From: Microbacterium sp. MM2322
Lineage (GTDB): Bacteria > Actinomycetota > Actinomycetes > Actinomycetales > Microbacteriaceae
Length of the DNA: 64,000 nt
Assembly: GCF_964186585.1 (NCBI RefSeq)
Contig: NZ_OZ075067.1
Coordinates: 992,001-1,056,000 of the forward strand
Direction: 5' to 3'
Of this stretch, positions 18,490 through 21,410 are shown piece by piece; position 1 is the first letter of the stretch, and each line of letters opens with the position of its first letter. Made by a program: the position numbers and the translations under genes. A model generated the notes under the pieces. It searched no databases and was not told the DNA's origin. It saw nothing but the letters and a program-made list of their open reading frames with translations.

Positions 18490-19242
18490 ATGAACCGCAC
18501 CGCACTCATCACGGGCGCGAGCTCCGGCATCGGGGCCGAATACGCCCGGCAGCTGTCCGCGAAGGGTGCGGACGTCGTTCTCGTCGCCCGCGACGAGAAG
18601 GCACTCCGTGCGCTGGCCGACGAGATCGGGGGTCGCGGCGGCCGCGCCGAGATCCTCGTCGCGGATCTGCTCGACGACGGCCAGCGTCGTCGGGTCGAGG
18701 AACGCCTGGAGCAGGGCATCGACCTCCTGGTGAACAGCGCCGGGTACGGGCTCCCACTCGGGTTCGAGGCCAACGACATCGAGGTCGAGGCCCGTCACCT
18801 CGAGCTGCACGTCGAGGTGACCATGCGGCTGACGCGTGCGGCGCTTCCCGCGATGCTCGCGCGCGGCAGCGGCCGCATCCTCAACATCGCTTCCGTCGCC
18901 GGGCTCATCCCACGGGGGACGTACGGCGCGGCCAAGGCGTGGGTCGTGAGTTTCAGCCGCTGGGCGAACGCGGTCTACAGCCCGAAGGGTGTGACGGTCA
19001 CGGCGGTCTGCCCCGGCTACGTCCATACGAACTTCCACGAGCGCCTCGGCCTCCCGCCGGGGGAGGAGGGCGTGCCCGGCGGGATGTGGTTGAACGCCGC
19101 GCAAGTGGTGCGCGGATCGCTCCGGGATGCCGCACGCGGCCGGGCCGTCAGCATCCCGTCGCTCCGCTACAAGGCGCTGACGTCGCTCGCCCGCATCCTG
19201 CCCGATCGCGTCGTCGTCGCCGTCGCCTCGCGCGGCCGCTGA
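18490..19242 (+). CDS. SDR family NAD(P)-dependent oxidoreductase
   Basis: A 250-residue classical short-chain dehydrogenase. The cofactor loop TGASSGIGAEYA is at residues 8-19, the NSAGYG segment follows, and the catalytic set is NIASVAG with Ser and TYGAAKAW with Tyr and Lys. CPGYVHTNFHE is the substrate-side PG motif. The basic residue pattern after the glycine loop suggests NADP preference. The substrate is unknown. It is a single-gene unit with its own -10 box. Confidence 0.9.
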   Translation: MNRTALITGASSGIGAEYARQLSAKGADVVLVARDEKALRALADEIGGRGGRAEILVADLLDDGQRRRVEERLEQGIDLLVNSAGYGLPLGFEANDIEVEARHLELHVEVTMRLTRAALPAMLARGSGRILNIASVAGLIPRGTYGAAKAWVVSFSRWANAVYSPKGVTVTAVCPGYVHTNFHERLGLPPGEEGVPGGMWLNAAQVVRGSLRDAARGRAVSIPSLRYKALTSLARILPDRVVVAVASRGR

Positions 19243-19290
19243 CGGAGACGCACGTCGGACGCGTGCGGCCCGATGCTCTTCGGGTGCGCG

Positions 19291-19360
19291 TTGCACGATC
19301 GCCGGTGCGGGAGTGGCGATCAGACGTGCGGGAGCCACCGTCCGCACCGCCGATCGTGCA
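19291..19360. repeat. 70-nt hairpin repeat, left copy
   Basis: The element begins TTGCACGATCGCCGGTGCGG and ends with CCGATCGTGCA. Its arms, 19292-19317 and 19334-19360, pair over about 26 bp with few mismatches around a loop of about 16 nt. A second copy of exactly the same length and orientation lies at 20301-20370; the outer 10-nt ends are identical and the loops have diverged. The two copies bracket the Vsr-like gene. It could be a REP-like element, a remnant of a small mobile unit, or a pair of terminators. Confidence 0.75.
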
Positions 19361-19463
19361 TTCGTCACATGACGCTCTCTCCTCAGGGCGCCTCGGCGGC
19401 CGCGTCGCTCACAGAGCCCGCCACACCGACGCCCGCCGACGCGGTGTGGGGCACGCTCGAGCA

Positions 19464-20297
19464 ATGGATTCCGCCACAGTCGTGCAGCACATCCGTGTCC
19501 TCGGGGGGATCGCGAGGTCCTCGCAACTCCGTCGGCGAGGAGCGACGCGGGCCCAGCTCGCTCGGGCTGTCGACCGCGGCACGATCGCCCGCCTACGTAA
19601 CGGCGTTTACTCCGTCCCCGGGGTGAGTCCCCATGTTCGGGATGCCGCGGCGCACGGCGGCGAGCTCTGTTGCGCTTCTGCACTCCGTCACCACGGCGTG
19701 TGGGTCCTCGAGCACCGGGAACGCGTTCACGTGTGGCTCGGTCCTGATGCCCGGGCTCACGCGCATGAGGGATGTCGCTGCGTGGCACATCGGGACGACG
19801 GAGTCGCGGCCTTCGGCGTCGTCCCGGTCGTGCACGCGCTCATCCAGTCGGCTCGATGCCTCGGGCCGGAGGGATTCTTCGCCGCATTCGAGTCGGCGTG
19901 GAACCTGGGGTTGCTCTCGCGTTCGGATCGCGCGCTCATCCGCCAAGGGCTCCCCGCGCGCTTCCGTTGGCTCGTGGACATCGCTCGCCCCGATGCGGAG
20001 AGCGGGATCGAGTCGCTCCTGCGCCTCCGTCTGCTGCGACTCGGCATCGCGCTGGACTGCCAGGTCCTCATCTCGGGCGTCGGCCGCGTGGACTTCCTCT
20101 TGGCCGACCGGATCATCCTCGAAGTCGACGGCCGCCTCAACCACGACGGACCCTCACGTCGTCATCACGACCTGGTCCGGGATGCCGAGGCCGCCGCAGC
20201 CGGATACGAGGCGCTCCGCTTCGATTACGCGCTCGTCGTGCACGACTGGCCGCGCGTGCAGCGCGCAATTCTGGCTGTTCTCGGTCGCACCCGGTGA
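19464..20297 (+). CDS. AbiEi-like winged helix plus DUF559 (Vsr-fold) endonuclease-domain protein
   Basis: A 277-residue protein. The N-terminal 55 residues (GGIARSSQLRRRGATRAQLA, then RLRNGVYSVP) resemble the winged-helix domain of AbiEi-type antitoxins. The C-terminal 95 residues resemble DUF559, a Vsr-like PD-(D/E)xK nuclease fold: ESLLR supplies Glu, VDFLL Asp, LEVDG Glu and Asp, and FDYALVVHDW the last strand. Function is unknown; a DNA-acting role is likely. ATG 19464 is the first start that preserves the domain, with no clear ribosome-binding site. No cognate AbiEii toxin gene is adjacent. Hairpin repeats lie 104 bp upstream and 4 bp downstream. Confidence 0.75.
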   Translation: MDSATVVQHIRVLGGIARSSQLRRRGATRAQLARAVDRGTIARLRNGVYSVPGVSPHVRDAAAHGGELCCASALRHHGVWVLEHRERVHVWLGPDARAHAHEGCRCVAHRDDGVAAFGVVPVVHALIQSARCLGPEGFFAAFESAWNLGLLSRSDRALIRQGLPARFRWLVDIARPDAESGIESLLRLRLLRLGIALDCQVLISGVGRVDFLLADRIILEVDGRLNHDGPSRRHHDLVRDAEAAAAGYEALRFDYALVVHDWPRVQRAILAVLGRTR

Positions 20298-20300
20298 CGA

Positions 20301-20370
20301 TTGCACGATCGCTGGCGCGGGAGTCGTGTTTCTGGCCGTAGGACGCAACCTGCGCCCCACCGATCGTGCA
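20301..20370. repeat. 70-nt hairpin repeat, right copy
   Basis: The element begins TTGCACGATCGCTGGCGCGG and ends ACCGATCGTGCA, four bases after the stop of the DUF559 gene. It is the same length and orientation as the left copy at 19291-19360. By eye 49 of 70 positions agree, including all of the outer 10 nt on each side, with the central loop unrelated. Its stem is less perfect than that of the left copy. Confidence 0.75.
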
Positions 20371-20419
20371 TCCGTCGCGCCATCGACGACCCCGCACACG
20401 GGCGAGGGACCCTGACCGG

Positions 20420-20432: not shown

Positions 20433-21410
20433 ATGACGCACTCCGCCAATCCGTTCGGTCAGGTGCTCGTCGCGCTCGTCACTCCGATGACAGCCGACGG
20501 CGAGGTCGATTGGCCGGCCGTCGAGAAGCACATCGACGACGTCATCACGGGCGGTGCCGACGGCATCGTCGTGACCGGGACCACCGGTGAGACGAGCACG
20601 CTCACGGATGCCGAGAAGCTGAAGCTCGTTGAGGTCGGCAAGTCCGTCTCCTCCGGCCGCGCGAAGATCATCACGGGAGGCGGCTCGAACGAGACCGCCC
20701 ACGCGATCGAGCTCTACCGTGCCAGCGAGAAGGCCGGTGCGGACGGCATCATGATCGTCACGCCGTACTACAACAAGCCGACACAGGCCGGCATCCTGAC
20801 GCATTTCCGCCTCGTCGCGGACGCGACCGACCTCCCGGTGATCCTCTACGACATCCCCGGTCGCACCGGCGTGCCCATCAAGTACGAGACGATCCTCCGC
20901 CTCGCCAAGCACCCGAACATCCTCGCGGTGAAGGACGCCAAGGGCGACTTCAGCGAGGTCAGTCGGGTCCTCAACCAGACGGACCTGCTCTACTTCTCGG
21001 GCGACGACGCCAACGTCCTCCCGCACCTGTCGATCGGCGCAGCCGGTCTCATCGGCGTGACGGCGAACATCACGTCGGCCCCGTACCGAGTGATCGTGGA
21101 TGCCGTCAACCGCGGTGACCTGCAGACCGCGACCGCCGCTCACAAGAAGCTCGAACCGCTCGTCCGTGCCGTCATGACGCACGTCCCGGGGACGGTCAGC
21201 GCGAAGTACATCCTGCACGGCCTGGGTCGCATCTCGAGCCCCCGCGTGCGTCTGCCGCTCGTCGGCCCCGAGGAATGGGAGGCCGCCCTCATCGAGGACG
21301 AACTCGACCTCGTGCGGGATGTCGACGGTGCTGACTTCTCCAACTTCCGACCAGACCGCAATGCCGCCGCGGGCGGCGCTCTTCCGAAGGTGCATGGAAC
21401 AACTCGATGA
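20433..21410 (+). CDS. dapA: 4-hydroxy-tetrahydrodipicolinate synthase
   Basis: A 325-residue class I aldolase that condenses pyruvate with aspartate semialdehyde, the first committed step of lysine and diaminopimelate synthesis. Visible residues are GTTGETSTL in the pyruvate site, TPYYNKP at 110-116, the catalytic-triad Tyr in LYDIPGRTG, and Schiff-base Lys168 in AVKDAKGD. ATG 20433 has a TACCCT box 7 nt upstream. The C-terminal 30 residues are an extension beyond the usual family end. It overlaps rnj by 4 bp (ATGA), a pairing common in Actinobacteria. Confidence 0.96.
   Translation: MTHSANPFGQVLVALVTPMTADGEVDWPAVEKHIDDVITGGADGIVVTGTTGETSTLTDAEKLKLVEVGKSVSSGRAKIITGGGSNETAHAIELYRASEKAGADGIMIVTPYYNKPTQAGILTHFRLVADATDLPVILYDIPGRTGVPIKYETILRLAKHPNILAVKDAKGDFSEVSRVLNQTDLLYFSGDDANVLPHLSIGAAGLIGVTANITSAPYRVIVDAVNRGDLQTATAAHKKLEPLVRAVMTHVPGTVSAKYILHGLGRISSPRVRLPLVGPEEWEAALIEDELDLVRDVDGADFSNFRPDRNAAAGGALPKVHGTTR

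Follow-up and report, generated by a model that had tools for sequence, protein, structure and literature searches.

Can a gene for a predicted nuclease and the palindromes on either side of it be partners, and what would the protein then do with them? The question is raised by a locus of Microbacterium sp. MM2322 within the 64,000-nt stretch of DNA analyzed here (the window; C1:992001-1056000), where two hairpin-forming repeats enclose a single gene with a DUF559 domain. Our data suggest that many DUF559 genes of Microbacterium and their private palindromes constitute an undescribed enzyme-repeat partnership.

The window locus and its protein

Reading of the letters, comparison of the arms, and a model of the palindrome family (F8) placed an upstream palindrome with a 69-nt core at 19292..19360 (extended match, 19279-19373) and a downstream palindrome with its core at 20302..20370 (extended match, 20289-20383), both on the forward strand. 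An earlier note on this DNA had described two hairpins here in the same orientation, and the sequence bears this out. The note gave each a length of 70 nt; the element is real, but its conserved core is 69 nt and the leading T falls outside it. The arms are complementary, as claimed, at 95% in the upstream copy and 83% in the downstream copy, and the two copies are 92% identical over their first 24 nt and 78% identical over their last 36 nt. The loops had been called unrelated. Free segments do exist, but the loops are not wholly unrelated: the outer arms have a conserved sequence, and so does an inner arm in some families. Partly paired GTGACG / CGTCAC flanks lengthen the F8 element to about 95 nt in a gap-free alignment of 11 copies. 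Two-sided change occurred in 1 of 16 pairs of F8, so covariation does not discriminate between a folded hairpin and a dyad in duplex form.

The gene between the palindromes encodes 277 aa and runs from ATG to TGA at 19464..20297 on the forward strand, as read off the sequence; the downstream palindrome starts 5 nt past its stop codon. Pfam matches confirmed both parts of the protein that the earlier note had recognized: an AbiEi_4-like winged-helix region at 19503..19619 (forward strand; residues 13 to 51 counted from 19467; E 3e-08; 34.1 bits against a cut-off of 25), which the PADLOC AbiEi models also match, and a DUF559 (Vsr-like nuclease) domain at 20019..20282 (forward strand; residues 185 to 272 counted from 19467; E 3.4e-06) with conserved acidic residues. 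NCBIfam gave no match. The AlphaFold2 model of the window protein is confident, with a mean pLDDT of 92.2 and a pTM of 0.87, and the nearest solved chain by sequence profile was 3hrl (E 0.0056, single match).

Scoring of 8000 candidates yielded 850 homologues. Of 113 aligned proteins, 112 carry E182, D209, and D235, and the odd one out is gapped; these 112 have E or Q at position 219, and D221 is likewise conserved or nearly so. Protein alignment A2 omits L037, L052, L059, L061, and L063. This pattern of residues fits a PD-(D/E)xK nuclease, in which these acidic residues would have the catalytic role. The other seven DUF559 proteins of this genome all exceed the DUF559 cut-off (7/7). An AbiEi match at E <= 0.01 was found in three of these seven, one of them over the cut-off, which we count against the explanation preferred below.

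The gene adjoins ThyX, SDR, and dapA, and neither a toxin (AbiEii) gene nor a cytosine methylase lies beside it, in agreement with the claim that it has no such partner. A gene 84% identical to it is flanked by the same neighbors in Microbacterium sp. EYE_78. Rfam returned six weak matches, not one of them close to the gathering score. A phage collection gave matches only to thyX-, SDR-, and dapA-like stretches. In two unannotated "Bacteriophage sp." records (MT835623.1 and MT835656.1), sequences resembling SDR and dapA (window 18721-19171 and 20681-21046) occur at about 71% identity, perhaps through bacterial contamination.

Palindrome pairs at DUF559 genes

The 3.09-Mb genome holds 12 F8 palindromes, 11 of which are the source copies of the model and match it by construction; the new one is at 585283-585377. 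The genome has nine PF04480 hits, and the window pair is the only one next to any of them; another F8 pair surrounds an unrelated 504-aa open reading frame (ORF). With 10 of 12 copies away from DUF559 genes, F8 initially had the look of an ordinary scattered repeat. In the genus, the exact pattern TGCACGA-N55-TCGTGCA was found in 41 of 295 genomes; the reversed control matched 6 of 295, each a single time. The association with DUF559 genes was at first judged absent, as a tblastn search that used 31 DUF559 proteins detected none of their relatives at 21 element loci of other genomes (L122-L142, the range covered out of L122-L151). However, the same test missed five of nine DUF559 loci of our own genome, and a Pfam-based comparison reversed the outcome. 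Among the matches listed, 23 of the 41 pattern-bearing genomes supplied 80 DUF559 loci; at 12 of these, 69-nt elements (up to 2 mismatches) lie on both sides of the gene, 1020 to 1083 nt apart from start to start. Twelve of the 23 genomes, again among the matches listed, have one bracketed DUF559 gene each, and in a thirteenth (G089) the contig end cuts the DUF559 gene, which has an element after it. The genome-wide search proposed in the earlier note thus had a divided outcome: in our own genome the window gene is the only DUF559 gene with F8 copies beside it, and 69-nt elements bracket DUF559 genes in other genomes. The note had also held scattering without a DUF559 link against its own idea; 10 of the 12 copies are indeed away from such genes, in the manner of REP elements, but the gene association is far above control. 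At L122, L124, L127, and L142, which belong to other genomes, the 69-nt element has a nested build, in which a 19-nt TGCACGA unit and its mirror image enclose a 31-nt inner palindrome; some elements of this group have extra 19-nt units.

Is bracketing by palindromes a property of DUF559 genes at large? As a statistic, we took the best local alignment between the upstream and the downstream flank of a gene, with a threshold of 44, the highest score that any of 480 same-locus control pairs reached. Many of 31 homologue loci found by protein similarity alone have palindromes of other sequence on both sides by eye, and 21 of 32 loci (these 31 and the window) scored above 44. When a single procedure was applied to 118 DUF559 genes of Microbacterium and Agromyces (the frameshifted L063 omitted), 83 exceeded the threshold: 20/30 homologues, 8/8 genes of our own genome, and 55/80 genus loci (79 usable). 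The genus loci were drawn from genomes selected for 69-nt elements, and among those without 69-nt bracketing 46 of 68 were still above 44. Among ordinary ORFs of this genome, the figure was 3 of 267; two of the three lie between copies of DUF559-family palindromes, and one resembles a neighboring gene duplicate. The Fisher P value for DUF559 genes versus ordinary ORFs is 1e-51, which overstates independence because the 118 genes are mutually related. A second null, pairing the upstream flank of one homologue with the downstream flank of another (256 pairs), reached 93 because related loci share palindromes, and it was not used as a threshold. Counted against the preferred explanation are the 35 of 118 genes without a flank pair above 44. 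One close relative (L033) is below the threshold, and its two copies were found by the F8 model only. In a tree that took in 113 of the 118 proteins, close neighbors frequently have palindrome ends in common and distant genes do not, as judged by eye.

Within MM2322, every one of the eight DUF559 genes over the Pfam cut-off has a private palindrome on both sides (L032, which is below the cut-off and has no flank pair, is excluded). The eight families differ from one another in sequence, and each has a single length, between 49 and 78 nt, and scattered copies: F1 has 18 copies of 76 nt, F2 17 of 63 nt, F3 4 of 78 nt, F4 10 of 75 nt, F5 8 of 51 nt, F6 6 of 55 nt, F7 13 of 49 nt, and F8 12 of 69 nt. 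These 88 copies were counted in about 0.87 Mb of the genome plus the fetched gene loci, and genome-wide for F8. A search of every family against every gene gave a diagonal table, the sole exception being a weak stray match that lies within an F2 copy. In all eight genes, the nearest copy on the downstream side starts 2 to 35 nt past the stop codon. Each palindrome consists of an outer arm, a free spacer, an inner arm in some families, and a free center, followed by the mirror image. A few copies, such as some next to the F3 and F4 genes, are a single base off the family length. In a control with seven shifted lengths per family, which covered F1 to F4 and F6 to F8, there were no hits for F3, F4, F6, F7, and F8, four for F1, and three for F2. 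The association of gene and hairpins put forward from the window holds for 8/8 genes of this genome, for 83 of the 118 tested, and for one actinobacterium of another class (see below), and we regard gene and palindrome as almost certainly specific partners.

Three of the eight F5 copies derive from a segmental duplication of 19.2 kb at 97.7% identity (326.7-345.7 kb and 350.9 to at least 370 kb; L248-L250). Near 316-319 kb, F1 and F8 copies alternate in the order F1-F8-F1 at two sites. At L017:4424-7010, our genome reads F1-F8-F1, the 504-aa ORF, and F1-F8-F1, and G067 (L306, L302) has a single F1 palindrome there, which looks like a deletion via recombination between direct F1 copies; the 504-aa ORF region is present in G015 and G131.

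Gene sites and scattered copies in relatives

The earlier note had proposed that the gene and its hairpins may be a small mobile or domesticated unit. Comparison with relatives does not support movement of the two as one. The place before dapA is kept in 5 of the 31 homologue loci, of which two are from Agromyces and a third, in M. oleivorans P10, holds a decayed remnant; the 14 compared loci of the window hairpin type fall into two syntenic groups; and solo palindromes are scattered. Several DUF559 genes of the family occupy separate conserved loci, and F1 palindromes flank a DUF559 gene on both sides in G015, G067, and G131 too. The genes studied hold conserved sites, and solo palindromes differ between species. 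In M. oleivorans P10, the DUF559 gene before dapA is truncated (L061:6001-6307), the upstream palindrome is absent, and an apparent remnant of the downstream one is left. A record titled Planococcus sp. APC 4015 (L035) has a Microbacterium-like order of SDR, DUF559, and dapA, with dapA 90% identical, and is probably mislabelled.

The comparison of insertion points covered 0.8 Mb of G015, where many copies were unplaceable. Four of our copies have orthologous empty sites there (F1 at 3071885, F3 at 2942658 and 386617, and F7 at 3014624), and others are common to both genomes (e.g., F8 at 2981974 and F1 at 284557). No target duplication was evident at the empty sites in this comparison, which counts against the preferred explanation. 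Copy numbers in our genome and G015 (0.85 and 0.80 Mb scanned) were 15 and 9 for F1, 15 and 8 for F2, 2 and 0 for F3, 8 and 0 for F4, 9 and 5 for F5, 4 and 2 for F6, 9 and 0 for F7, and 9 and 1 for F8. G015 has an F1-type gene (83%), only a partial match to the F2-type gene, and no F8-type gene before dapA; the DUF559 genes of G015 were read in part, and we claim no correlation between gene and copy number.

The F4 locus of G015 has flanks 85 to 90% identical to ours and a protein 55% identical. Protein and palindrome are both unlike ours at this one syntenic locus, which we count for the preferred explanation; the different palindrome was seen by eye only, with a flank score of 35, below 44, which counts against it. 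The longer arm of this palindrome forms two pairs in each genome, and our F4 arm forms six here and none in G015. Pairs of the G015 type are therefore present here without a known gene of that type, again a point against. Next to the gene at the G015 F5 locus (protein, 66%), no palindrome was seen by eye, and the score was 28, which also counts against. A further DUF559 gene of G015 (L377, G015:C1:232000-237500) has another palindrome (CGGCGGAGATC) on both sides by eye only, with a flank score of 29, which likewise counts against.

Readings of the partnership and its breadth

How could an enzyme and a palindrome come to be paired in this way? From the sequences, we consider it likely that the protein acts on its palindrome and somewhat less so, though still favored, that it spreads it. 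Each DUF559 protein would be the dedicated enzyme of one fixed-length, two-armed palindrome family, and the resident gene would hold a stable chromosomal site between at least two copies of its own palindrome, kept there by some benefit. The N-terminal part (in the window protein, the AbiEi-like winged helix) would probably bind two half-sites, as a duplex dyad or an extruded hairpin, and the Vsr-like domain would nick or cut at the bound palindrome. Repair or rejoining of the cut product could then leave solo copies elsewhere, chiefly in convergent or tandem gene gaps. Protein and palindrome would change together, and several specificities could therefore coexist in one genome. We give moderate credence to this account as a whole, that is, to a system that resembles a REPtron, with a Vsr-like PD-(D/E)xK nuclease recognizing and spreading its own palindrome.

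A REPtron is described as a tnpA-REP (RAYT) gene together with its REP/REPIN family (PMC6006769, PMC8266576, and PMC3733652). On those descriptions, the likeness lies in a lone gene that has copies of a private palindrome family on its flanks, with one family per gene, and in a stable gene with extragenic scattered copies, mostly in convergent or tandem gaps, which known REPs are reported to favor (PMC3733652). In contrast, the REPtron enzyme is a Y1 HUH transposase and the one here is DUF559/Vsr-like; the palindromes here are two-armed, 49 to 78 nt long, and of a single length per family. The unpaired GTAG foot tag of REPtrons is absent from the F8 consensus, and the other families were looked at by eye, unsystematically. 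By analogy, the DUF559 system would work like a REPtron yet is not one, because a search for Y1_Tnp (PF01797) at E <= 0.01 gave 0/48 genomes, half of them (24) carrying the 69-nt pattern and the other 24 lacking it. CGTC-tagged REPs, reported mostly from alphaproteobacteria and as lacking a dedicated transposase (PMC3733652), are scattered as here, but according to that source they are 20 to 40 nt long with an unpaired CGTC tag. The window protein shares an AbiEi_4-like N-terminal region with AbiE toxin-antitoxin systems, but has a C-terminal nuclease domain in place of a toxin partner. It shares the C-terminal domain and its acidic residues with Vsr / DUF559 endonucleases, but differs in its extra N-terminal part, its private flanking palindromes, and the lack of a methylase neighbor. 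Full-text searches of open-access papers, a body that excludes preprints and most subscription papers, returned none that ties DUF559 to such palindromes.

Could the palindromes instead serve defense? The nuclease would then attack foreign or damaged DNA, with the palindromes as self marks, decoys, or activity controls and their fast change as an arms race. The nuclease domain, the PADLOC matches, and an F4-type protein 55% identical between two relatives, within flanking DNA of 85 to 90% identity, are in its favor. However, no defense genes adjoin the window gene, several such genes occupy separate conserved loci, and nothing in this analysis points to a phage effect; we consider this reading unlikely.

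Regulation, with the AbiEi-like protein repressing its own gene via the palindromes and the scattered copies as operators of a regulon, is less probable still. Pfam names AbiEi a transcriptional regulator/antitoxin, and AbiEi autoregulates through inverted repeats. The palindrome, however, lies directly 3' of the stop codon in all eight genes, and a sigma-70 consensus scan found no promoter-like site in the locus. Scattered copies are also scarce in divergent gaps: on a crude gene prediction, 70 classed copies divide into 29 in convergent, 29 in tandem, and 4 in divergent gaps and 8 inside predicted ORFs, and all gaps of 30 nt or more into 78, 203, and 108, respectively (divergent, 4/62 versus 108/389).

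Insertion sequences of the IS200/IS605 type have hairpin ends on both sides. An insertion sequence whose gene and terminal palindromes transpose together, leaving solo palindromes as remnants, would account for the unit of about 1 kb with hairpins at both ends (for the comparison, see PMC8266576), but the two syntenic groups, the place kept before dapA, and the great excess of solo copies over genes make it improbable. Finally, that DUF559 genes are mere bystanders among structural or RNA hairpins (terminators or mRNA ends) spread otherwise would agree with the folding of the copies, which falls below that of shuffled sequences (z < -2) for 74 of the 88, and with the preference for convergent gaps (29/62 versus 78/389), but is very improbable given one family per gene in 8/8 genes (one weak stray match), compared to flank pairs at 3/267 ordinary ORFs, and given that a terminator scan found no terminator-like site in the locus.

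The only known partnership of this layout, the REPtron, uses HUH transposases; here the layout recurs with an unrelated nuclease domain, many times and with gene and palindrome matched one-to-one. If the preferred account, a nuclease that spreads its own palindrome, is correct, these genes would make up a naturally occurring collection of orthogonal nuclease-site pairs, would suggest what a domain of unknown function nowadays often labelled antitoxin may do, and would provide a testable way for REP-like repeats to spread without a transposase. Whether DUF559-type proteins are a second, independent class of palindrome-spreading enzymes, of the PD-(D/E)xK type with their own site specificities, eight of them in one actinobacterial genome, and possibly serving REP families without a known enzyme, is for us evenly balanced.

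How far does the arrangement extend? A DUF559 match, at the cut-off used, was present in 26 of 80 genomes drawn from the phylum, which provided 29 loci beyond our own genome (28 usable). Long proteins had a flank pair above 44 at 5 of 19 loci and short ones at 0 of 9; the 14 long proteins without a pair count against the preferred explanation. Palindromes stand on both sides at two of the five loci, clearly at L285 and weakly at L278, and the other three have another kind of repeat. In G320, from another class of the phylum, a search for the L285 arm that allowed up to 3 mismatches gave 19 hits, against 0 for the reversed control, and an arm pair lies on each side of the DUF559 gene in the same layout.
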